A stretch of DNA of 42,038 nucleotides. Source: a virus. Both the position numbers and the translations under genes were made by a program. Shown piece after piece: positions 22,090 to 42,038 of the stretch. The notes beneath the pieces are model-generated. The model was not told the origin of the DNA, ran no database searches, and saw only the letters and a program-made list of their open reading frames with translations. The stretch spans positions 1 through 42,038 of IMG/VR virus record IMGVR_UViG_3300028569_002817, one strand, 5' to 3'. Position 1 is the first letter of the stretch, and each line of letters opens with the position of its first letter.

Positions 22090-22134
22090 GGAGGACCTGC
22101 CGGGGCACGCAGGTTCCGGCCTTGTTCCGCGAAA

Positions 22135-22195: not shown

Positions 22196-22250
22196 CAGAA
22201 CAGTGGTAGAACGGTGCTTGTACGCAACGCTGAAGGGGACGCAGCACCCG

Positions 22251-23519
22251 TCATCGTGCCGCTGCCTGTGCGCCACGCGCTGCGGCCACGTCCCGGAACA
22301 CCCGGTCCTCACCCGCCAGCACCGCCGCCTTGCCGGTGAGGTTCTGCCAGCGCTGGATTGCGACATCGACATATCGCGGATCGATATCCACCGCGTGGCA
22401 AACCCGCCCCGTCGTCTCCGCAGCGATCAGTGTCGTGCCGCTGCCGAGGAACGGATCGTAGATCGCCTCGCCGGCCGCGCTGTTGTTGATGATCGGCCGG
22501 CGCATGCATTCCACCGGCTTCTGCGTGCCGTGCACCGTGGCGGCATCCTCGTCTCCGCCGTTGCTGATGGCCCAGAGCGTCGCCTGGTCCCGCGCACCCT
22601 GCCAATGGCCGGTCGCGCCCTTGCGCACCGCGTAGAGGCAGGGCTCATGCTGCCAATGGTAGTCGCCGCGCCCCAGCACGAAGCGCGACTTCGCCCAGAC
22701 AATCTGGCTGCGGATCACGAAGCCCACGGCCTCCAGGCTGTCGATCACCGTGCGGCTGTGCACGCCGGCGTGCCAGACATAGGCCACATCGCCAGGGAAC
22801 AGCGCCCAGGCCTGGCGCCAGTCAGCCCGGTCGTCATTCGCCACCTTGCCGGTGCGCATTGTGGCCGAGACGCCGGCCTCGTTCCGCCATTCCGGATCGT
22901 AGTTCACGCCATATGGCGGGTCAGTGATCATCAGATGCGGGGTCGTACCATCCAGCAGCCGCGCCACATCGGCGGCGCTGGTGGCATCGCCACAGAGCAG
23001 TCGGTGCGGACCCAGGTGCCAGAGGTCGCCGGTCCGCGTGACCGGCACGACCGGTGGCTCGGGCGCCGGCGCGTCGGGATTGCCAGCAGCAGTCGCTACG
23101 TCGCCCATTGCGTCGGCCAGCAGGCGATCCATCGCCGCCTGGTCGAAGCCGATCACACCGAGGTCGAATTCGTCGGCGCGCAGATCCCGCAGTTCGGCGG
23201 CGAGCAGGCTCTCGTCCCAGGTCGAGTTTAGCGCCAGCTGGTTGTCCGCCAGCCGGAAGGCCCGCGCCTGCGCCTCCGTCAGATGGCCGAGCCGGATGGC
23301 GGGAACCGCGTCGAGCCCCAGGGCCTTCGCAGCGAGCACACGGCCGTGGCCGGCAATCAGCACACCGGCATCATCCACCAGCACTGGCACATTGAAGCCG
23401 AACTCGGCGATGGACGCGGCTAGCTGCGCCACCTGCTCGCTCGGGTGCATGCGCGCATTGGCGGCATAGGCCGCGAGCGATGCCACTGGCATCATCTCCA
23501 TTTGAAGGTCAGGCCGCAT
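22251..23519 (-). CDS. DNA methyltransferase with N-terminal ParB domain (copy 1)
   Basis: 422 residues from the ATG at 23519; an ATG at 23501 is an alternative. The N-terminus is ParB/sulfiredoxin-like: YAANARMHPSEQVAQLAASI, VPVLVDDAGVLIAGHGRVLA and ARAFRLADNQLALNSTWDE. The C-terminal half is a beta-class amino-methyltransferase: motif IV LMITDPPYGVNYD comes before motif I YDPFLGSGTTLIA, and the target-region between them has NEAGVSATMRTGK and WHAGVHSRTVIDS. It should methylate adenine N6 or cytosine N4. It ends 160 bases after the DUF3489 gene on the opposite strand and overlaps copy 2 by 11 bases. No restriction partner is beside it, which fits a phage genome-modifying orphan enzyme. Confidence 0.88.
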   Translation of the reverse strand: MRPDLQMEMMPVASLAAYAANARMHPSEQVAQLAASIAEFGFNVPVLVDDAGVLIAGHGRVLAAKALGLDAVPAIRLGHLTEAQARAFRLADNQLALNSTWDESLLAAELRDLRADEFDLGVIGFDQAAMDRLLADAMGDVATAAGNPDAPAPEPPVVPVTRTGDLWHLGPHRLLCGDATSAADVARLLDGTTPHLMITDPPYGVNYDPEWRNEAGVSATMRTGKVANDDRADWRQAWALFPGDVAYVWHAGVHSRTVIDSLEAVGFVIRSQIVWAKSRFVLGRGDYHWQHEPCLYAVRKGATGHWQGARDQATLWAISNGGDEDAATVHGTQKPVECMRRPIINNSAAGEAIYDPFLGSGTTLIAAETTGRVCHAVDIDPRYVDVAIQRWQNLTGKAAVLAGEDRVFRDVAAARGAQAAAR

Positions 23520-24966
23520 CGGCAGTGACCTCCATGCGGGCTGTGGCGACAGCATCATAATCGCAGCCGTCATCGGCCAGCGTGACCGGCTGATCCGGAT
23601 GCAGCATGCGCCAACGGGCGATCGCCAGGTCGACATAGGCGGGCGCCAGTTCGATGGCGCGTACGCGGCGGCCGATGCGCTGACCCGCCAGGATTGTGGT
23701 GCCGGAGCCGCCGAAGGGCTCGAACACCACCTCGGCCTCGTCCGTGTAGGTGCGCATTAGGAATTCCGGCAGCACCACCGGGAACACCGCAGGGTGCTCC
23801 GTCTCGATGCCGCGGCCCTTGTGGCGGGTCAGGCGCAGCACGGTGTCGGGGATCCGGAAGTCCTGCACCGGCAGGCCCGCATGCTGGTATTCCGAGATGG
23901 TGCCATCCGCCGCGCGCAGGCCGCTGCCCTTGTTCGGCGTGCCGGCCCATTTGCAGGGCACGATCTTGTTCGCCTGCCGGGCCTGGCGATTGAAGTGGAA
24001 GACGAACTCGAAGGCCGGCGCCAGCCGGCCATTCCAGTCGCCGGGCAGGCCGGGCCCCTGGTCCCAGGCGTACAGCCCGAAGCGGCGCCAGCCGCGGGCG
24101 CGCATCCAGTCGAGCCAACCGGACCAATAGGGGATCCATTCGCTCTCGCGATGGATGAGGCCGAGGTTCACCAGCACCTGGCCGCCCGGCTGCATCGCTG
24201 CGTCGAGATGCTGGAACACGCCCTGCATCAGGGCATCCCAATCCGTGCCGCCGCCGGTCGTGTAGTCGCGCTGGTTTCCATAGGGCGGGGAGGTGAACAA
24301 CAGCGCGGCGCGGTTGTCACCCATCACGCGCGCCACGGTGGCGGCGTCGGTGCTGTCGCCGCAGAGCAGGCGGTGGTCGCCCAGCAGCCAGAGATCGCCG
24401 GGGCGGGTGACGGCCTGGCGCGGCGGCTCCGGATCGGCATCGGCGGGGTCCTCGGCGGGCGCCTCGTTGCCAGGGGCGTCGGCGCTGGCAGCGGCCGGGC
24501 TGGCAAGGGTCCCGTTGCCAGGGTCCGTTGCCACCGGCTCCATGCCGGCCAGCAGCCGATCGAGCTCGCCGGCATCGAATCCGGTGAGCGCCAGGTCGAG
24601 GCCGCCCATCTCCTGCAGCTTCGCCACCTCGGCGGCGAGCAGTGCCTCATCCCACCCCGCATTCAGCGCGATGCGGTTGTCGGCCAGCCGGTAAGCGGCC
24701 TTCTGTGCATCGGTCAGTCCGGCGCGGGTGATGGTGGGGACCGTCTCCAGGCCGAGGGATTTGGCGGCTTGCAACCGGCCATGGCCGGCGATGACCTCAC
24801 CGCGCTCATCGACCAGCACGGGCGCCACGAAGCCGAACTCGAGAATGCTGGCCGCGATCTGCGCTACCTGCTCGGCGGAATGCGTGCGCGCATTGCCGGC
24901 ATAGGGCAGGAGGGAGGCGACCGCGCGCGCCTCAACGGCGCTCGCAGACCATGGGGCCTGGGGCAT
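23509..24966 (-). CDS. DNA methyltransferase with N-terminal ParB domain (copy 2)
   Basis: 485 residues from the ATG at 24966 (MPQAPWSASA); a frame to 25023 has a His run and is less likely. The ParB part holds YAGNARTHSAEQVAQIAASI, VAPVLVDERGEVIAGHGRLQ and AAYRLADNRIALNAGWDE. The methyltransferase part has motif IV LLFTSPPYGNQRDY and motif I EVVFEPFGGSGTTILAG, again in beta order. SPPY in place of DPPY suggests cytosine-N4 methylation, though this is only a tendency. A Pro/Ala/Asp linker (about residues 160-200) joins the halves. It shares domain layout with copy 1, which it precedes, but its target region is unrelated (WIPYWSGWLDWMRARGW). Confidence 0.88.
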   Translation of the reverse strand: MPQAPWSASAVEARAVASLLPYAGNARTHSAEQVAQIAASILEFGFVAPVLVDERGEVIAGHGRLQAAKSLGLETVPTITRAGLTDAQKAAYRLADNRIALNAGWDEALLAAEVAKLQEMGGLDLALTGFDAGELDRLLAGMEPVATDPGNGTLASPAAASADAPGNEAPAEDPADADPEPPRQAVTRPGDLWLLGDHRLLCGDSTDAATVARVMGDNRAALLFTSPPYGNQRDYTTGGGTDWDALMQGVFQHLDAAMQPGGQVLVNLGLIHRESEWIPYWSGWLDWMRARGWRRFGLYAWDQGPGLPGDWNGRLAPAFEFVFHFNRQARQANKIVPCKWAGTPNKGSGLRAADGTISEYQHAGLPVQDFRIPDTVLRLTRHKGRGIETEHPAVFPVVLPEFLMRTYTDEAEVVFEPFGGSGTTILAGQRIGRRVRAIELAPAYVDLAIARWRMLHPDQPVTLADDGCDYDAVATARMEVTADAA

Positions 24967-25291: not shown

Positions 25292-26332
25292 TCAGTCTCC
25301 ACCAGGGAGCTTGCGCTTCCTCCCCTTCGCCGAGGTGGTCGCGGTATCAGCGATGCGCTTGAGTTCATCCACATCGGTGGTGGCGGCGGCTGTCGCACGC
25401 TCTGCCTGACGCCGTGCCTCCTCGAAGGCATCGTACCGTGTCTGCGCGATGGCTTGCGCCTGCTCAGCGGAGATCGACCCGAGCCCACGCAGGATTGGCA
25501 GGTCGTTGGACTTCAGGAAGGTGTCGAGCACCTGCTCCCAATCCGCGAGGTGCATGGTTTGCCTGCGGCTGGCGCGCAGCTCTGCGGTGTTCAGGAACGT
25601 CTCCACGATGAGATTGAGCTGGCTCACCTCCTGCTCATCCAGATAGTTCTTCGCGGTTGTCACATCGCCTTTACGAACGCGGCTGCCCTTCCAGGTGGTC
25701 AAGCCCATGTTCGCCAGGCCCGGATTTGAACGAGCGGCGATGATTTCAGCCGCTGTCTGGCCCGTCACCGAGAAGAGCATCTTGTTCTGGATGGTGGCGT
25801 AGAAGGTATGCGCCGCATTGCCTTTGGCATCGTAATCCACGCTGAGGGCGAGGATGTCGCGAACCTTCTGATAGAATCGCGCTTCCGATGCCCGGATGTC
25901 CCGAATGCGGGCAAGGAGTTCATCGAAGTAGTCGAAGCCTGGGTCCTTGAGGCGTTCGTCATTCATGACGAAGCCCTTCACCAGGTAGTCCTTCAGCGCC
26001 GTCGTGGCCCACTGCCGAAACTGGGTGCCGCGGACTGATCGAGCCCGAAAGCCAATCGCCAGAATGATGTCCAGGCTATACAGCTTCACATCGCGGCGAA
26101 CCGCCCGGCCACCCTCGGTTCGAACTTGTAAGTCCTGCTTACAAGTTGCCTCCTCCGAGAGCTCCCCCTCGGCAAGGATGTTGCGAATGTGAATGGTGAC
26201 GTTCTGCGGCGAGACCTGGAAGAGCTCGGCGATCTGCGCCTGGGTAAGCCATACCGTGCCGTCAATGGCTCGAAGCTGGATCTCCGTCAGGCCATCGGGT
26301 GTCCGATACAGAACGATCTCGCCTTTGGACAC
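25292..26332 (-). CDS. RhuM family protein
   Basis: A 346-residue protein from a GTG at 26332 (VSKGEIVLYRTPDG). The N-terminus has a helix-turn-helix (VWLTQAQIAELFQVSPQNVT, then IHIRNILAEGEL) and VKLYSLDIILAIGFRARS, FRQWATTALKDYLVKGFVMN, the classic RhuM signature. The rest has DYFDELLARIRDIRASEARF, HTFYATIQNKMLFSVTGQTA, MHLADWEQVLDTFLKSNDLP, and a Lys/Arg-rich C-terminus. RhuM was first seen as a Salmonella pathogenicity island gene; homologues are common on prophages and in accessory islands near defence genes, and their biochemical function is unknown. It is flanked by phage genes and has its own promoter, which suggests a moron. Confidence 0.88.
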   Translation of the reverse strand: MSKGEIVLYRTPDGLTEIQLRAIDGTVWLTQAQIAELFQVSPQNVTIHIRNILAEGELSEEATCKQDLQVRTEGGRAVRRDVKLYSLDIILAIGFRARSVRGTQFRQWATTALKDYLVKGFVMNDERLKDPGFDYFDELLARIRDIRASEARFYQKVRDILALSVDYDAKGNAAHTFYATIQNKMLFSVTGQTAAEIIAARSNPGLANMGLTTWKGSRVRKGDVTTAKNYLDEQEVSQLNLIVETFLNTAELRASRRQTMHLADWEQVLDTFLKSNDLPILRGLGSISAEQAQAIAQTRYDAFEEARRQAERATAAATTDVDELKRIADTATTSAKGRKRKLPGGD

Positions 26333-26380
26333 GCCGCAAACCCCTGATGAATCCCGCGAATCGAATCGCCCCTGAGGTGA

Positions 26381-26389
26381 AGTATAGCA
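26381..26389 (-). promoter_or_regulatory. Extended -10 promoter of the RhuM gene
   Basis: Minus strand TGC-TATACT (TATACT at 26386-26381, TGC at 26389-26387), a match to the extended -10 TGnTATAAT. It lies about 49 bases upstream of the GTG start. No good -35 hexamer is seen at 17 bases, as is common with extended -10 promoters. Confidence 0.5.
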
Positions 26390-26438
26390 TCGTGGAGCCA
26401 CGGACGCCGCAGAGTAGCCGTGGCAGAGGCCTGTTCAA

Positions 26439-33354: not shown

Positions 33355-33999
33355 TCAGCGCGCCCAGGCGGGACGGTTGTCGCCGCCGGCCGCCGGCGGG
33401 GTGCGCGACACGGCGGCGGGGAAGGCGCCTTGGGTCGGGGCGGCGGGCGGCGGGGCGTAGGTCTGCGCCGGCGGCGCGTAGGCGGGCCCGGGCGCGCCCG
33501 TGTGCGGCCCCATCGCCGTGGCATAGGCCCGGTGGTCGGGCGTGACCGCCATGCGGATCTCGTTCTTCGGCTCGCCGTTGGCGTCCGTGCCGGTGTCGAT
33601 CTTGGCGAGGAACTCCAGCCCCTCGAGGTCGGCGAAGCCGCCGATCCGCCGCGCGGCCTGGGCCTGCGGCGAGGCGTCCTTGTCGGAGATGCCGCGGGCC
33701 GAGTTCAGCATGCCGCGTACGAAGCTGCGGCCCATGTTCCCCCAGTCCGGCCCCTTCGGGCTGTAGAGCCCGATCAGCGTGAAGATCTTCCGCTTGGCGT
33801 AGGGGCCTTCCAGCACGGTGAACTCGCCGTTGAGGTAGACGGCGCCGGTGCTGCCGCGCGTGGCGTAGCCACCTGTCCAGCCCTGGCTCGGATCGTCGAA
33901 GCCGCCGGGACGGATCGTCAGGCGCACCTTCGCGATGGTGCCCTTAGGGATCAGGTTCGGGTTCTGCGAGGCGTCGTTGTAGTCGTTCCAGGAAGCCAT
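33355..33999 (-). CDS. Single-stranded DNA-binding-like phage protein
   Basis: A 214-residue protein. The N-terminus ASWNDYNDASQNPNLIPKGT then AKVRLTIRPGGFDDPSQGWT and VYLNGEFTVLEGPYAKRKIF fits the OB-fold type proteins (SSB-like) in phage replication modules, next to the Sak4-like ATPase. After about residue 150 the sequence is Pro/Ala-rich (YAPPAQTYAPPPAAPTQG) and ends in RPAWAR, without the acidic tip typical of bacterial SSB. The role is inferred from order (helicase, SSB-like, recombinase-type ATPase) and pattern. The ATG at 33999 has a GAGGAGA site upstream. Confidence 0.55.
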   Translation of the reverse strand: MASWNDYNDASQNPNLIPKGTIAKVRLTIRPGGFDDPSQGWTGGYATRGSTGAVYLNGEFTVLEGPYAKRKIFTLIGLYSPKGPDWGNMGRSFVRGMLNSARGISDKDASPQAQAARRIGGFADLEGLEFLAKIDTGTDANGEPKNEIRMAVTPDHRAYATAMGPHTGAPGPAYAPPAQTYAPPPAAPTQGAFPAAVSRTPPAAGGDNRPAWAR

Positions 34000-35279: not shown

Positions 35280-35636
35280 TCACGCGGCGACGCTCATCGG
35301 CTTGGCCGCCGCCAGGACCGAGGCCAGCGTGCCGGCGCGGCTGCGGGCGCGCGGCCGGGCGATGGCGAGGTAGATGAAGTCGCTTTCGCCCATGCGGCGC
35401 TGGACGAGGTGCACCAACCCGTCCTCGGCCAGCTGCAGGGCGCGTTCGGCGACGCGCAGAAGAGCGCGACGCTCGGCGTCCGGCACCGTCGAGGTGAGCG
35501 GCGAGGCGTCGACCGCCAGGAAGCCGCGGTGATAGACGATGCGGTCACCAGGCACGGCGGAGCCGAACCAGGCGCAGAACATCGTCTCGGTGAGCGGCGG
35601 CTCCGCAGAGCGAAAGCCAGTGATCGTGCTGTCCAT
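35280..35636 (-). CDS. Hypothetical phage protein
   Basis: A 118-residue protein: MDSTITGFRSAEPPLTETMF then CAWFGSAVPGDRIVYHRGFL, followed by ERRALLRVAERALQLAEDGL and VHLVQRRMGESDFIYLAIAR. The last part has a winged-helix-like pattern (helix, then a hydrophobic strand pair), so it may bind DNA; this is a weak inference. It is 33 bases from the sigma factor stop and is the first of the small unknowns of the early operon. Confidence 0.6.
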   Translation of the reverse strand: MDSTITGFRSAEPPLTETMFCAWFGSAVPGDRIVYHRGFLAVDASPLTSTVPDAERRALLRVAERALQLAEDGLVHLVQRRMGESDFIYLAIARPRARSRAGTLASVLAAAKPMSVAA

Positions 35637-35669
35637 GTTGAGTATTACCCAGCCTCCTGCAAATCCGTC

Positions 35670-36242
35670 TCACGCCGCCGCCGGGATGCCGGCGACGAGC
35701 AGGCGGAGCCGCAGCTCGCGCAGGTGGCGGTAGAGGGTGGCGCGCGACGTCGGGCTGGCCTTGGCCAGCTCGTGCGGGGAGCGCTCGGTCAGTTCGGCGC
35801 AGAGGGGGAGGGTCTCGGCCGGCAGGGTGCCCAGCGCGCGGTCGAGGTCGATGCGGCGCTCCACCGCCGCGAAGGCGTCGGTCGGCTGGCCAAGCCAGGC
35901 GCCGTAGCCATCCGCCTCGGCGACGCTGTCGCCGATGGTCAGGCCCTCGCTGCCGGGCTGAGGGTCATCCAGCGAGATCGGCGCCATGGTGGCGCGGCCG
36001 CGCAGGATGCGCTCGGTGAGGCGGATGGCGCGGTGGTCGAAGCAGGCGGCGGCGAAAGGACCGAGCTCGCCTCGGGCCGGATCGAAGCCCTTCAGCCGGG
36101 CGAAGAGGTCCGTCAGCAGGTCCTGGCGGAGATCTTCCTGCTCATGGCGGGGGATCCGGCAGGTGCGGATGATGCGCAGGGCGACGCGGTCGGCGCTACG
36201 CTGCAGGGCATTGGTTTCGGCGCGGGTGGGGGTGAAGGGCAT
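35670..36242 (-). CDS. Phage RNA polymerase sigma factor, ECF-like
   Basis: A 190-residue protein. Region 2 is seen at about residues 20-85: RIPRHEQEDLRQDLLTDLFA, then RLKGFDPARGELGPFAAACF and DHRAIRLTERILRG. Region 4 is seen from about residue 125: AVERRIDLDRALGTLPAETL, then ERSPHELAKASPTSRATLYR, HLRELRLRLL, with a helix-turn-helix. It would direct host RNA polymerase to a phage promoter class, probably late genes. It is the first gene of the leftward early module. A related -10/-35 set should lie upstream of TerS. Confidence 0.72.
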   Translation of the reverse strand: MPFTPTRAETNALQRSADRVALRIIRTCRIPRHEQEDLRQDLLTDLFARLKGFDPARGELGPFAAACFDHRAIRLTERILRGRATMAPISLDDPQPGSEGLTIGDSVAEADGYGAWLGQPTDAFAAVERRIDLDRALGTLPAETLPLCAELTERSPHELAKASPTSRATLYRHLRELRLRLLVAGIPAAA

Positions 36243-36350: not shown

Positions 36351-37340
36351 TCAGGGGCGGATATCGATTTCCTCGGGCGTCAGCGCCAGGCGATAGCGGC
36401 TGGGCTGCCGTTTACCCTCGATGAGGTCGCGTGCGGCTTTGGCTTCGGCACCTTCCAGGCCCGCGGCCAGCCCATCCTTCAAAAGGCGAATGATGTCCCG
36501 CGGCTCCCGCGCGGCGGGCCGAATCTGGTCTCCGTAGATTGCGCGGTCGAGTTCATGGGTTTCGACGAACCCGCCATGGCGTTGCGCCGCCTCCGCCAGT
36601 TTCACCAGCAGCCGGAGCGGTTGGTCGCCCAATTGCCGTGGTCGGCGATCCAGAGCCACCGTTCGTCCGGCGCGGCCGATGATGAGGCGGACCTTCCCCG
36701 GCATGCCCGGCGCGAGCGCTGCAGGATCCAGCGCGAATCCTGCATCGCCGAGCGCCTCCATGGTCATCATGATGCGCAGCCCGGCCTCGGCGAGATGCTG
36801 ACGCTGCAATTCTGGGACGGCGCCCGGCAGGAGGAGCGTCGTTTCATCTGGCTCCACCCTGGTGCGGATCAGCGTCACAAGCCGCGGGGCGGCCGCGGAC
36901 ATCGGATCGAGCGCCAGCATCACCGATCGTCCACTGGGCAGGCGGCCGAGATCCCAGACGCCATCCGTCACCATCGCCACATCGCCGGAGAGGCCTGACG
37001 CAGCAGCAATCAGGCGGCACAGCACAGCCGCGTCGATCTCGAAGCTGCGGATCAGGTTTGGCGCCAGGGTGGTGTTGCTGCGGTGATCCTCGGGGCATTC
37101 GGCGACCAGCAGATCGCCGATGATCACGATATCCCGCCCTTCACAGCGGCCTTCGCAGGTCGAGCAAGGCGGCCAGGTTGTCGCCGGCGCGCGTTCCGTC
37201 AGCAGGCCTTCGGCCAGCAGGCGGTCGAACGCCCTGCCAAAATGCGGCTGTGCCTCACGCCCCCAAAGAACGGCGCCGTGCCCTCCCTCACTCCGCCGCA
37301 GCAGCAGCTTCGGCAGGCTGTCGTTCACGGCAGAATCCAT
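36351..37340 (-). CDS. Unknown protein with Cys4 cluster and C-terminal winged helix
   Basis: A 329-residue protein. Near the N-terminus GRAFDRLLAEGLL may be the end of a small winged helix. Cys59, Cys62, Cys66 and Cys82 (PPCSTCEGRC, then VAECPEDH) look like a zinc site. The middle (about 90-215) contains VAMVTDGVWDLGRLPSG and SVMLALDPMSA, alpha/beta in pattern. Residues 218-325 (VRLIIGRAGRTVALDR, then LVKLAEAAQRHGGFVETHEL, then DIIRLLKDGLAAGL, GKRQPSRYRLAL) match the OmpR-type winged helix. It overlaps the end of the upstream gene by 53 bases, so the two are probably coupled. No named family is known to me. It could be a DNA-binding sensor or regulator. Confidence 0.65.
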   Translation of the reverse strand: MDSAVNDSLPKLLLRRSEGGHGAVLWGREAQPHFGRAFDRLLAEGLLTERAPATTWPPCSTCEGRCEGRDIVIIGDLLVAECPEDHRSNTTLAPNLIRSFEIDAAVLCRLIAAASGLSGDVAMVTDGVWDLGRLPSGRSVMLALDPMSAAAPRLVTLIRTRVEPDETTLLLPGAVPELQRQHLAEAGLRIMMTMEALGDAGFALDPAALAPGMPGKVRLIIGRAGRTVALDRRPRQLGDQPLRLLVKLAEAAQRHGGFVETHELDRAIYGDQIRPAAREPRDIIRLLKDGLAAGLEGAEAKAARDLIEGKRQPSRYRLALTPEEIDIRP

Positions 37341-38532
37341 TCCGGCGAAGAAGCTCCATGACCCGCGCCTCGAAGCGCTGCCGCTTGAACACGGCGAGGG
37401 AGGGCGGCTTGATTTTGACGGTCACACGAGACGCACGGCTACGGCCATCTCCGAAGTGGATGCGGATGATGATGTGCCCGATCCGGTAGCGGCCCGTGCT
37501 GAACGAGACCCGATCGCCGAATTCATTGAGCCGGGTCAGCGCATTGCCACAAAAGTCCCGGGTCACGTTCTGCGCTTCGACCGCCACCTCGCCGCTGCGG
37601 GGGTCTGTGCCGATGCGGTCGATCTGCACTTCGACGATGTCCACCTGCTGGATGCCTGCATCGAAGGCGTGGTTCACCCGGAAGCCGAACCCCACGTTCT
37701 CGATGCGCTCCAGCGTGTAGAGGTCCTGGCAGTCCTCGCCGGCAAAGAAGCCTGGGCGCCTGAGCATATGCACAGCGAAGAACTCAGCCAGCTCCGCGCG
37801 CAGCGCCAGCCGGACGCCGCCGACACCCATGCGCCCAGTGCCCACATTGTAGGCAAGCACGGCATATTCGACGCTGCGATAGCTGATGACGTCCTCTTGG
37901 TCTCCATTGATCACCGGTACGACGGCCACAGGCGCCCCGTGGGTGACGACCAGGACTGTCTGGTCGCCATCTTCGTACCACCCGACGCGGCAGAAGGCGC
38001 CGCGGTGGTCGCGCTGGAACATCTCGGCTGCCGCGGCCTCGAAGGCCGCCCGTGAGGCGTCATCGAGGCGCGGCTCGATCCCTTCATCAAGACCGACATA
38101 CTCGGCCAGGGAGGATCGGGCCTGGCGTGCCAGCATGTCCGATGCAGCATCGAAGACGGGGCGGTGGTCCAGAAACGCGAGAAGGGCGAAGTGCTTCGGA
38201 TCGAGCGGGATTGGGTTGCCATCCGGATCGAGCGGCGCGGCGATGTTAATGTCGCGGGCGGCGGCACGCTCCTGAAGCAAGTGCATGCCGTTCTCAGTGC
38301 CGAGCTCAGCGATGTGGTGGAGGTCTGCCACGATGCCGCGCGGCAACGCATCCTCGGTACCTTCGAAGAAGACCTTCAGCCGATCCCGGACTTCCGCTTC
38401 GTCACCGTCGAAGTCAGCCAAGTCGAAGCCGCGCAATGCATCAGGCTGCCGCTCAAATAGCCGCCGGAATAGGCCGAGATTGACGGTCTTCAGGAACTTC
38501 GGATTGACAAATTTCTTGAGGTCCCTGGCCAT
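37288..38532 (-). CDS. Unknown 414-residue protein, partner of the winged-helix protein
   Basis: The ATG at 38532 (MARDLKKFVNPKFLKTVNLG) has a weak GAGAG site; a TTG at 38544 is the only further upstream option. Seen in order: LFRRLFERQPDALRGFDLAD, GIVADLHHIAELGTENGM, PLDPKHFALLAFLDHRPVFD, GAFCRVGWYEDGDQTVLVVT followed by HGAPVAVVPVI, ISYRSVEYAVLAYNVGTG, RRPGFFAGEDCQDLYTLERI, HIIIRIHFGDG, VTVKIKPPSLAVFKRQRFEA and RVMELLRRNGFC. It appears two-domain: a helical N-half and a beta-rich C-half. I have an impression of homologues next to the same partner in other genomes, but I know no function. No nuclease, helicase or kinase motif is seen. The overlap with the downstream gene suggests a two-component system. 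Confidence 0.7.
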   Translation of the reverse strand: MARDLKKFVNPKFLKTVNLGLFRRLFERQPDALRGFDLADFDGDEAEVRDRLKVFFEGTEDALPRGIVADLHHIAELGTENGMHLLQERAAARDINIAAPLDPDGNPIPLDPKHFALLAFLDHRPVFDAASDMLARQARSSLAEYVGLDEGIEPRLDDASRAAFEAAAAEMFQRDHRGAFCRVGWYEDGDQTVLVVTHGAPVAVVPVINGDQEDVISYRSVEYAVLAYNVGTGRMGVGGVRLALRAELAEFFAVHMLRRPGFFAGEDCQDLYTLERIENVGFGFRVNHAFDAGIQQVDIVEVQIDRIGTDPRSGEVAVEAQNVTRDFCGNALTRLNEFGDRVSFSTGRYRIGHIIIRIHFGDGRSRASRVTVKIKPPSLAVFKRQRFEARVMELLRRNGFCRERQPAEAAAAAE

Positions 38533-38852
38533 TCTCTCGCCCAATGATGTTCATTTTTCGTTCTATCAACCCACGCGTGCGTCTGTCGAATCGAATCTGC
38601 ACTCCGTGAGACGGATTCCCACGTGCCTGGGTAAATGGTGGGGGTGGCAATTGAACCCCTCCGCCCTGCGGGCAACCCCCACCTCCCGCCGCACCTCCGC
38701 GAGGTATGCAGCATCCTGGCCGCCGGCCTGCTGCGGCTGCGCAGCCGCGCTGCTGAGGAAGCTGCGCGCGAGACCTCTGACCAGGGAGAGCGTGGCCTAC
38801 ACTTCCCGGCCCCCCAGCGCCTGCATGCGAACCGGACCAACCGGAGACCCGC
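38533..38852. other. Divergent intergenic region with 12-bp inverted repeat
   Basis: About 320 bases between two divergent units. GGTGGGGGTGGC (38637-38648) and GCAACCCCCACC (38672-38683) form an inverted repeat with 11 of 12 matches and a 23-base spacer. AT-rich sequence near 38545-38570 could hold the leftward promoter. No gene is seen. A regulator of either unit might bind here. Confidence 0.55.
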
Positions 38853-39359
38853 ATGACACGCGCCACCAGATCGAAGGCCGGCACCACGCCGGCGCCGACC
38901 ATTCCCGCCATTCCGCCAGCCGACGTTCTGGGCCGGCTGACGGCCCTGAAGACCACCGCCACGCCGGACCTGAAGCAGCAATGGCGGGAGCTCTTCGCCG
39001 CCGAGCCGCCGCCCTACAACCGGCGCTTCCTGGAGAGCCGCCTGGCGTATCGGATCCAGGAACTGGCCTATGGCGGCCTGAAGCCCGAGACGGTCCAGCG
39101 CCTGGAAGCCCTGGGCGAGCAGCTCGACGGCGGCAATCCCGTCCTCCGGCGCATCCGAGGCGACGACAAGCCAATCACCGGCACGCGGCTGATCCGTGAG
39201 TACCAGGGCGTCGAGCACAGCGTCACCGTGCTGCACGAAGGGTACGAGTATCAGGGTCGCCCCTACCAGTCGCTCTCCTCCATCGCGCGGGCCATCACCG
39301 GCACGCGCTGGAATGGCTGGCTGTTCTTCGGCCTGAAGAACCGGAGGGGCACGGCATGA
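38853..39359 (+). CDS. DUF2924 family protein
   Basis: A 168-residue protein from the ATG at 38853 with GGAG upstream. It has the known DUF2924 order: PADVLGRLTALKTTATPDLK, QQWRELFAAEPPPYNRRFLE, SRLAYRIQELAYGGL, then GTRLIREYQGVEHSVTVLHE, GYEYQGRPYQSLSSIARAIT and GTRWNGWLFFGL. The C-terminal part is beta-rich with a Tyr/Trp pattern as in MraZ/SpoVT-type or RAMA-like modules that bind DNA. It overlaps the recombinase start as ATGA. The DUF2924-recombinase pair is a recurrent mobile cassette in alphaproteobacteria, where DUF2924 may guide the recombinase; its exact role is not known. Confidence 0.9.
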   Translation: MTRATRSKAGTTPAPTIPAIPPADVLGRLTALKTTATPDLKQQWRELFAAEPPPYNRRFLESRLAYRIQELAYGGLKPETVQRLEALGEQLDGGNPVLRRIRGDDKPITGTRLIREYQGVEHSVTVLHEGYEYQGRPYQSLSSIARAITGTRWNGWLFFGLKNRRGTA

Positions 39360-40708
39360 AGCGCAAGCCAGCCGCCGAGACTGCGATGCCGGCCACCGTG
39401 CGGAAGATCCGCGCCGCCGTGTACACGCGGAAGTCGAGCGAGGAAGGCCTCGACATGGAGTTCAACTCGCTCGACGCCCAGCGCGAGGCGTGTGAGGCCT
39501 ACATCACCAGCCAGCGGTCGGAGGGTTGGGTGCTGGTCCGCGATCGCTACGACGACGGAGGCGTTTCTGGCGGGACACTGGAACGTCCGGCGCTGCGGCG
39601 CCTCCTGGCCGATATCGAGCGCGGGCTGATCGACGTGGTGGTGGTCTACAAGATCGACCGGCTGTCGCGCGCGCTGATGGACTTCGCCAAGCTGGTGGAG
39701 GTGTTCGACGCGAACAGCGTGACCTTCGTGTCCGTGACGCAGAGCTTCAACACCACCACCAGCATGGGCCGGCTGACGCTGAACATCCTGCTCAGCTTTG
39801 CGCAGTTCGAGCGGGAGGTCATCGGCGAGCGCATCCGCGACAAGGTGGCGGCGTCACGGGCGCGCGGAATCTGGATGGGGGGCTTCCTGCCACTCGGCTA
39901 CGACGCCAAGGACCGCAAGCTGCTGGTGAACGAGGCGGAGGCGGCACTGGTGCGCCGGATCTTCGAAGGCTTCGTCGAGACGGAATCCGGTACGAAGCTG
40001 GTCCAGGCGCTGCGTGCCGAGGGCGCCACCACGAAGCGCGGCCGCGCCTTCACCAAGAGCGACGTCTACCGGGTGCTGAGCAACCGCACCTATCTCGGTG
40101 AGGCCATGCACAAAGGGAGGTCGCACCCGGGCGAGCACGCCGCCATCGTGCCCCAGCCGATGTGGGACGCGGCGCATGCCCTGCTGGCAATCAGCCCGAA
40201 GACACGCGCCAACCGCACCCGCTGCCAAACGCCTTCGCTGCTGCGCGGGCTGATCTTCGGCAGCGACGGGCGTGCCATGTCGCCCACCCACGCGCGGGGC
40301 CGGCGCGGCCAGCAGTACCGCTACTATGTGAGCCAGTCGGTGCTGAAGGGCAGCGCCGTGGACGGGCCGGCCATCGCCCGCATTTCCGCCGCAGAGATCG
40401 AGGGCGCGGTCATCGCGCAGGTCCGGGGGCTGCTGCGCCAGCCGGAGGTGGTGCTTGGGGCCTGGCGCGCGGCACGGGCCTCGGCGCCTGACATGACGGA
40501 AGACGAGGCCCGGCTGGCGCTGGAGCGGCTCGACCCGCTGTGGGAGGAGCTCTTCCCCGCGGAGCAGGCGCGCATCATCCGTCTCCTTGTCGATCGGGTG
40601 GACATCGGTTCAGGCGGCGCCGACGTGCGGCTTAAGCTGGAGGGGCTGGCCAGCCTGGCGCGGGACCTCGCGGCGCCACCGGCCGAAGCAGCGAGGGCCG
40701 CAGCATGA
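39356..40708 (+). CDS. Large serine recombinase
   Basis: A 450-residue protein. The catalytic domain starts AAVYTRKSSEEGLDMEFNS with Ser27 in the Y-x-R-x-S motif, followed by LDAQREACEAYI, RYDDGGVSGGTLERPALRRL, VVVYKIDRLSRALMDFAKLV and FAQFEREVIGERIRDKVAAS. The middle is the recombinase domain (FTKSDVYRVLSNRTYLGEAM) and a zinc-ribbon-like segment (TPSLLRGLIFGSDGRAMSP), though without the usual paired Cys. A coiled-coil-like C-terminus follows. It is close to the size of phage integrases of the large serine class, but this cassette is common on its own. The stop overlaps the next gene as ATGA. Substrate att sites cannot be seen. Confidence 0.92.
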   Translation: MKRKPAAETAMPATVRKIRAAVYTRKSSEEGLDMEFNSLDAQREACEAYITSQRSEGWVLVRDRYDDGGVSGGTLERPALRRLLADIERGLIDVVVVYKIDRLSRALMDFAKLVEVFDANSVTFVSVTQSFNTTTSMGRLTLNILLSFAQFEREVIGERIRDKVAASRARGIWMGGFLPLGYDAKDRKLLVNEAEAALVRRIFEGFVETESGTKLVQALRAEGATTKRGRAFTKSDVYRVLSNRTYLGEAMHKGRSHPGEHAAIVPQPMWDAAHALLAISPKTRANRTRCQTPSLLRGLIFGSDGRAMSPTHARGRRGQQYRYYVSQSVLKGSAVDGPAIARISAAEIEGAVIAQVRGLLRQPEVVLGAWRAARASAPDMTEDEARLALERLDPLWEELFPAEQARIIRLLVDRVDIGSGGADVRLKLEGLASLARDLAAPPAEAARAAA

Positions 40709-41094
40709 CGGGCGCTGCGCAGATGCTGACCGTGCGGGTTCCGCTGGCAATCCGGAAGCAGCGGGGCGGGCGGAAGCTGATGATCGCGCCTGCCAGCACC
40801 ACGAACCGGGGGTCCTCGGCTGGGGACACGACGTTGGTGAAGGCGGTGGCCCGGGCGTTCCGGTGGCGGCGGATGATGGAGACCGGGCGCTTCGCCACGA
40901 TCAACGAGCTGGCGGCAGCCGAGAAGATCAACTCCTCCTACGTCTCGCGCCTCCTCCGGCTCACGCTGCTGGCGCCGGATATCGTGGAGGCGATCCTGGA
41001 CGGGCGGCAGCCGGATGGGATGACGCTGCCGGGGCTGATGGAGCCGTTTCCGGCGGAGTGGGACCGGCAATTATCGGTCCCCCGGCGCATCTGA
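40705..41094 (+). CDS. Small HTH protein of the recombinase cassette
   Basis: A 129-residue protein. LMIAPASTTNRGSSAGDTTL is followed by VKAVARAFRWRRMMETGRFA, TINELAAAEKINSSYVSRLL (helix-turn-helix) and RLTLLAPDIVEAILDGRQPD, the recurrent third member of the DUF2924-recombinase cassette, sometimes labelled as phage-related or ParB-like HTH. It likely binds DNA near the recombination site or regulates the cassette. It overlaps the recombinase stop as ATGA. Confidence 0.8.
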   Translation: MTGAAQMLTVRVPLAIRKQRGGRKLMIAPASTTNRGSSAGDTTLVKAVARAFRWRRMMETGRFATINELAAAEKINSSYVSRLLRLTLLAPDIVEAILDGRQPDGMTLPGLMEPFPAEWDRQLSVPRRI

Positions 41095-41289: not shown

Positions 41290-41439
41290 ATGAGCGCAGA
41301 ATCGCTGGGAGACCGTCCAAGCTATGCACTGAGCCCACAAAGGCTCAAGCGCCAGGTGCCCCGTCCTGCCTGCAACTTTTCTAGTAACAACTGGCGCGAT
41401 TACGAGCCTCTTTCGTCAAGCCTCGATCGGCTGACATGA
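41290..41439 (+). CDS. Small ORF coupled to the SNF2 helicase, 49 residues
   Basis: MSAESLGDRPSYALSPQRLK then RQVPRPACNFSSNNWRDYEP and SSSLDRLT. A GGAGG site is 8 bases upstream of its ATG. Its TGA overlaps the helicase ATG as ATGA, which indicates translational coupling and argues against chance. No homology is known to me. The 195 bases between the recombinase cassette and this ORF hold no visible gene. Confidence 0.5.
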   Translation: MSAESLGDRPSYALSPQRLKRQVPRPACNFSSNNWRDYEPLSSSLDRLT

Positions 41440-42038
41440 GGGTTTCTGATCAGCACGCAAAGTATTTTTCGAAGGACCTGTCGCGTCGTGCGCCGGTCGG
41501 CATCGACCGCCTTTCTGCAGCGTTGTTTGACGCGGCAGTCGACCTTAATCCCCACCAGATCGAAGCCGCGCTTTTCGCGCTTAGGTCGCCACTCTCGAAG
41601 GGCGTGATTCTTGCCGACGAGGTGGGTCTCGGAAAGACCATCGAGGCCGGCATTGTCCTTTGCCAGCTTTGGGCGGAACGCAGGCGGCGGCTCCTCGTAA
41701 TCTGTCCCGCCTCAATCCGGAAACAGTGGGCTCTTGAGCTCGAGGAGAAATTTAATCTGCCTGCAGTCGTGCTCGACGCGCGCTCCTGGCGCGAGGCCCA
41801 GCGCCTCGGCCAGGAGCCGCTCACGCAACGCGCTGTTCTGGTCATGTCCTACCACTTCGCGAATAGCCAACGCGAAGCGCTGAAGCGCATTGCCTGGGAC
41901 ATCGTGGTCATCGATGAGGCACACAAGCTTCGCAACGCCTATCGGCCGAGCAACAAGGTCGGCCAGGGGATCCGCTGGGCTACGGAGGGCTGCCGCAAGG
42001 TTCTCCTGACTGCCACGCCGCTTCAGAACTCACTGCTG
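41436..42038 (+). CDS. SNF2-family helicase, 5' part (cut by window end)
   Basis: The first 201 codons of a longer gene; the frame is open to the window end. The N-terminus RVSDQHAKYFSKDLSRRAP, then GIDRLSAALFDAAVDLNPHQ and IEAALFALRSPLSKGVILAD, leads to Walker A EVGLGKTIEAGIVLCQLWAE, then VICPASIRKQWALELEEKF (motif Ia), DIVVIDEAHKLRNAY (DEAH) and VLLTATPLQNS (motif III). This is the SNF2-type helicase that in many bacteria heads a defence or modification operon with a DNA methyltransferase and DUF4391-type protein. Codon use is less GC-biased at third positions than in the phage genes (for example TAT TTT, AAA TTT), suggesting different ancestry. What follows cannot be seen. Confidence 0.85.
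   Translation, partial: MRVSDQHAKYFSKDLSRRAPVGIDRLSAALFDAAVDLNPHQIEAALFALRSPLSKGVILADEVGLGKTIEAGIVLCQLWAERRRRLLVICPASIRKQWALELEEKFNLPAVVLDARSWREAQRLGQEPLTQRAVLVMSYHFANSQREALKRIAWDIVVIDEAHKLRNAYRPSNKVGQGIRWATEGCRKVLLTATPLQNSLL

Follow-up and report, generated by a model that had tools for sequence, protein, structure and literature searches.

Two overlapping genes, here called P1 and P2, are the head of a phage early operon in a viral DNA record of 42,038 nt (IMG/VR IMGVR_UViG_3300028569_002817; positions 1 to 42,038, the whole stretch analysed, referred to below as the window). On balance we lean towards the view that the pair, which opens the early operon of a widespread alphaproteobacterial prophage, is an SOS-induced lytic regulatory cassette.

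Coupling and setting of the two genes

The genes of the operon and of the neighbouring cassette are as follows.

37288..38532, minus strand: P1, 414 aa, start ATG 38532; alpha-helical N-terminal part followed by two beta-rich domains, with a predicted RdgC/RexA/CENP-N-like fold
36351..37328, minus strand: P2, 325 aa, start GTG 37328 (alternative start ATG 37340, 329 aa); N-terminal winged-helix-like part, Cys4 cluster, receiver-like middle domain and C-terminal OmpR/PhoB winged helix
37288..37328, minus strand: overlap of P1 and P2, 41 bp (53 bp with ATG 37340)
35670..36242, minus strand: sigma-like gene, third of the operon, 190 aa; sigma region 2 and C-terminal HTH
38853..39359, plus strand: DUF2924 gene, part of the divergent integrase cassette
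39356..40708, plus strand: large serine recombinase, the integrase; 51% identity to the large subunit of the AcaML1 recombinase
40705..41094, plus strand: recombinase small-subunit-like gene, containing the likely prophage end at 41061-41063

Both frames lie where an earlier, sequence-only reading had placed them, P1 at 37288-38532 and P2 from ATG 37340. The 53-base overlap that it described holds for this ATG, but the family alignment puts the start of P2 most likely at GTG 37328, and the overlap is therefore 41 bp. Family-aligned starts give the same 41-bp overlap in 63 relatives and a 32-bp one in 42 others. On codon comparison with a relative (L004; NG86), purifying selection is acting on both genes, with dN/dS of 0.07 for P1 and 0.19 for P2; by these low values and the existence of relatives, the frames are more than chance open frames.

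Relatives of P1 were found in 47 viral loci and 80 genome loci. A survey of co-occurrence, in which rare pairing would have spoken against the proposal that the two genes form one module, bears that proposal out: of 133 loci with P1, drawn from viral contigs and from genomes of Alphaproteobacteria, 125 have P2 downstream of it. These counts do not represent independent events because the loci are not phylogenetically independent. All loci came from searches seeded with P1 or P2, and pairing was judged by P2 beside P1 and by a sample of 385 alphaproteobacterial genomes, in which full-length P2 is confined to genomes bearing P1 and anything else that the P2 profile matches is a segment of a response regulator or a fragment. 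Among the eight exceptions to the pairing, five run out of contig (L056, L063, L073, L119 and L133) and one, L048, has a truncated P1. The other two, L116 and L118, extend for kilobases downstream of P1; they keep P1 and its LexA box and lack P2 and the sigma-like gene. L116 has several kb downstream of P1 with no P2, and in L118, from a Hyphomonadaceae genome, P1 is fused in frame to a phage primase-helicase (L118:9980-13348) and the recombination genes are also absent. Both look like deletion remnants, with the L118 fusion probably a deletion junction; given these loci, P1 might act alone.

The same gene order is conserved around the pair when the frames of the window are compared with all loci, with neighbours kept in 90-116 of about 127 loci. 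On the integrase side these are DUF2924 (116 loci), the serine recombinase (107) and its small partner (101); the operon follows with P1 (127), P2 (118) and the sigma-like gene (114), and beyond it lie the gene at 35280-35636 (113), a Sak4-like annealase (100), the gene at 33355-33999 (96), a DUF6511 gene (94) and a Cas4-type exonuclease (90). The pair is thus flanked by a divergent serine-integrase cassette of AcaML1/WO type on one side, and by the sigma-like gene, annealase and exonuclease on the other. The sequence-only reading had assigned the pair to an accessory region beside a mobile recombinase cassette; it heads a conserved early operon instead, and the cassette is the integrase module of the phage itself. 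As that reading also stated, the pair encodes neither replication enzymes nor virion parts.

Prophages with the pair span Rhodobacterales, Acetobacterales, Hyphomicrobiales and other Alphaproteobacteria. Searches with tblastn gave no match to P1 or P2 in 50,697 deposited phage records or 72,556 plasmids, and this prophage lineage therefore looks essentially unstudied; a search of phages with the sigma-like protein likewise gave no match. The genome of Falsiroseomonas selenitidurans (G001) carries two divergent P1-P2 copies (G001:C51 and G001:C57), which suggests two prophages of one lineage in one cell.

Predicted folds and domains

P2 ends in a winged helix of the OmpR type, as had been noticed from the sequence. 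A profile of 82 members retrieved OmpR-family regulators from the PDB (best E 2.1e-5, BaeR), Pfam PF00486 matches 44 of the 82, and Foldseek aligns the P2 model (pLDDT 91.7) with BaeR and others. The reported Cys4 cluster is also present, residues 59, 62, 66 and 82 of the longer form being C55, C58, C62 and C78 in 325-aa numbering. Across the 82 sequences C55 and C78 are invariant and C58 occurs in 81; the third Cys stands at position 60 or 62 (74 CxxCxC, 7 CxxCxxxC and 1 deviant), and every member has at least four Cys in the region, a module that probably binds zinc. P2 shares with OmpR/PhoB response regulators both the winged helix and a receiver-like middle domain, but differs from them in that the phospho-acceptor Asp is not conserved (34 of 82) and in its extra N-terminal part, winged-helix-like with the Cys4 cluster. 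These features of sequence and model point to P2 as a DNA-binding transcription factor.

The fold of P1 is predicted from an AlphaFold2 model (pLDDT 82.7, pTM 0.73). Foldseek against the PDB matched Chl4/CENP-N chains (best E 7.2e-4) and RdgC (probability 0.99), in general with low TM-scores of 0.2-0.4, and among the PDB matches listed all those with probability >0.25 are RdgC or Chl4/CENP-N. In a viral library, a phage RdgC matches the model with probability 0.87. RdgC, RexA, Iml3 and Chl4 have a common fold (PMC11077077; PMC4080450), and RexA is related to the P1 matches in this way (PMC11077077), being itself absent among the 50 structure matches listed for P1. P1 thus probably resembles the RdgC/RexA/CENP-N fold. 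Comparison of P1 with RdgC (PF04381) gave no Pfam match and an hhalign probability of about 0.1%, which rules out membership of the RdgC sequence family; because the TM-scores are low and the profiles do not align, the relationship is a probable resemblance of fold. P1 is further set apart from RdgC, RexA and Chl4/Iml3 (CENP-N/L) by a longer alpha-helical N-terminal part.

Searches of Pfam, NCBIfam, PADLOC and PDB profiles gave no convincing family match for P1. Matches to NCBIfam 'Ppl antiphage' (E 0.16) and to EAD1 (1 of 46 members, E 0.012) were dismissed as chance, and a PDB profile match to the antibody-type chain 8rz0 (E 0.007) was judged spurious.

For the sigma-like protein, PF04542 (sigma region 2) is matched by 29 of 29 members (best E 1.1e-7), the window member falling below the curated cut-off, and for sigma region 4 there are only weak generic HTH matches. 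The GTA activators GafA and GafY-GafZ are likewise phage-derived regulators with a sigma-like part in Alphaproteobacteria, and the phage RDJLphi1 has been reported to carry a CtrA (OmpR-family) DNA-binding domain together with GafA (PMC6363796). Homology to these regulators gained no support from the sequences searched: profiles of P1, P2 and the sigma-like protein have no match in the initial 50 kb of RDJLphi1, a phage that reportedly carries GafA, or in the AcaML1 and WO stretches examined.

The LexA box, the outward elements and proposed prophage induction

Four sequence elements surround the operon.

38549..38563, minus strand: LexA (SOS) box, GAACGAAAAATGAAC, upstream of P1
38562..38590, minus strand: sigma70-like P1 promoter predicted from its sequence, TTCGAC (38590-38585), 17-nt spacer, GATAGA (38567-38562)
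38607..38633, plus strand: element A, TGAGACG-N14-TGGGTA, directed toward the integrase cassette
35646..35672, minus strand: element B, TGAGACG-N14-TGGGTA, directed toward the gene at 35280-35636 and the replication and recombination genes

The predicted -10 of the P1 promoter overlaps the LexA box. In 118 of 122 loci P1 is preceded, at a distance of 31-63 nt, by a motif of the form GAAC-N7-GAAC; the same-strand background is about 23 further copies in the 2.05 Mb of these loci. This motif is the reverse complement of GTTCN7GTTC, the LexA box of Caulobacter (PMC9578287), and, as a positive control, in each of the 7 host genomes examined it precedes the lexA match by no more than about 165 nt. 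LexA would presumably repress the P1 operon in vivo, and a host-type LexA box on the promoter in 118 of 122 loci points to lytic induction. For a CI-type repressor, neither Peptidase_S24 nor HTH_3 was found above cut-off in the window, which may represent an incomplete phage genome. Two more copies of GAAC-N7-GAAC stand in opposite orientation at 22113-22127 (minus) and 22198-22212 (plus), 85 bp from each other; the chance expectation for the window is 0.7 boxes.

A 27-bp consensus, TGRGACG-N14-TGRGTA, flanks the block of P1, P2 and the sigma-like gene and points outward on both sides. The loci contain 181 exact matches, all with a gap of 14 nt although gaps of 8-16 were allowed, and none turned up in sequence simulated to match 30 loci in dinucleotide content. 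Of these matches, 75 are directed at the integrase operon and 101 at the gene that follows the sigma-like one; the remaining five mostly sit at equivalent positions in loci for which the start list has no entry. When up to one mismatch is accepted, 109 of 119 loci have element A and 107 of 113 have element B. The lack of exact matches in the genomes G005 and G006 had suggested that the element is lost together with P2 and the sigma-like gene; this was rejected, as both genomes keep element A with one mismatch. Seven whole host genomes yielded seven exact matches, in five genomes; as all of them fall at the prophage (placed by contig ranges), the elements are taken to be phage-specific. They are candidate promoters of the sigma-like protein or candidate P2 sites.

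We propose the following course of events for a temperate, siphophage-type lineage of Alphaproteobacteria in which P1 and P2 come first in an SOS-inducible early operon. In the lysogen, host LexA on the box over the P1 promoter -10 would keep the operon off. DNA damage would remove LexA, so that P1, P2 and the sigma-like protein would be made together. P2 would act as a transcription factor, with its OmpR/PhoB-type winged helix behind a pseudo-receiver and a probably zinc-binding Cys4 module; P1, probably a DNA-embracing protein with the RdgC/RexA/CENP-N fold, would be produced in step with P2 through the gene overlap. DNA binding by P1 and an interaction between P1 and P2 are presumed here. 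Together with the sigma-like factor the two proteins would act on the outward elements, and switching these on would activate integrase and excision functions on one side and replication and recombination on the other, committing the prophage to lysis. In favour of this reading, RexA has been reported to push lambda toward lysis.

To our knowledge P1, P2 and the sigma-like protein are unlike the regulators of the Bacillus phage GIL01, the CTX prophage and the phage SPC32H. In these switches, as cited in PMC9437464, a host LexA box precedes lytic or antirepressor genes, as it does here, and according to that source host LexA triggers the lytic cycle in several other phages. The present box differs in the operon that it heads, which comprises P1, P2 and the sigma-like gene.

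If the proposal is true, it provides a directly testable model of lytic induction, built from host LexA, a relay of three genes and two outward elements specific to the phage. The RdgC/RexA/CENP-N fold, whose spread across phages, bacteria and kinetochores is poorly understood, would likewise gain a candidate member. A bolder version is tentative and we regard it as doubtful: P1 would found a new family of phage DNA clamps of this fold, working with the pseudo-response-regulator P2 and a phage sigma factor, host LexA would be the sole repressor of the prophage, and the cassette would relay DNA damage to outward promoters.

The main alternative, which we consider rather unlikely, is that P1 serves mainly in recombination or replication, restraining host RecA or shielding phage DNA as an RdgC-like DNA clamp alongside the Sak4-like annealase and Cas4-type exonuclease, with P2 a separate transcription factor that shares only the operon. 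The RdgC-like predicted fold, the recombination genes in the same operon, the in-frame fusion to a primase-helicase in L118 and the absence of RdgC from 7 of 7 hosts examined are all in keeping with such a role; it leaves the near-strict coupling of P1 and P2 and their conserved overlap unexplained, however, and the fusion is known from L118 alone, where the locus seems to have suffered a deletion. Less probable still is that P2 is a lysogeny regulator which keeps the outward elements repressed, assisted by P1 as co-repressor, and that its supply is tuned by the LexA box. P2 is predicted to bind DNA, the elements flank its operon and the window yielded no CI-type repressor, but sharing an SOS-induced promoter with the sigma-like gene would make such a repressor counteract induction.

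The sequence-only reading had suggested a defence or counter-defence role. A defence, exclusion or counter-defence module, such as Rex-like superinfection exclusion, now seems very improbable: P1 may have the fold of the lambda exclusion protein RexA and family libraries give the pair no annotated function, but PADLOC, Pfam and NCBIfam make no assignment (even up to E 10, neither P1 nor P2 matches any PADLOC family), plasmid searches gave no relatives, and the pair occupies a core rather than a variable position behind an SOS promoter. The partner of P1 is moreover a predicted soluble-type DNA-binding regulator, whereas that of RexA is the membrane protein RexB.

Prophage limits and other genes of the window

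The remainder of the window carries terminase, portal, head, tape-measure and tail genes, and the prophage is therefore regarded as of siphophage type. Its integrase cassette has the order of large and small recombinase subunits seen in AcaML1, and the recombinase is 37.5% identical to the phage WO integrase; in a profile search, P1 and P2 were absent from the AcaML1 and WO stretches examined. An invertible cassette between inverted repeats is not favoured, as the orientation is identical in all tabulated loci.

Beyond 41061-41063 the window no longer resembles its relatives in other Falsiroseomonas genomes. This boundary lies within the 3' end of the small-subunit gene (41058-41094), and the last codons of that gene therefore appear to be host-derived. 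A frame for an SNF2-type helicase with a DEVGLGKT motif (41436-42038, plus strand) runs off the end of the window and, because it lies beyond the point where similarity stops, is placed outside the prophage; the pair had been described as next to an SNF2 locus. Among the compared loci, this frame recurs at length and high identity only in L002, itself near-identical to the window throughout, and most likely represents the host flank of the insertion.

Rfam and tRNA scans of the window were empty. Two further genes on the minus strand were recorded: a ParB-like domain fused to a DNA methyltransferase (22251-23636), and a RhuM-family gene (25292-26401; PF13310) that also matches PADLOC candidate models PDC-S05 (E 6.6e-144).
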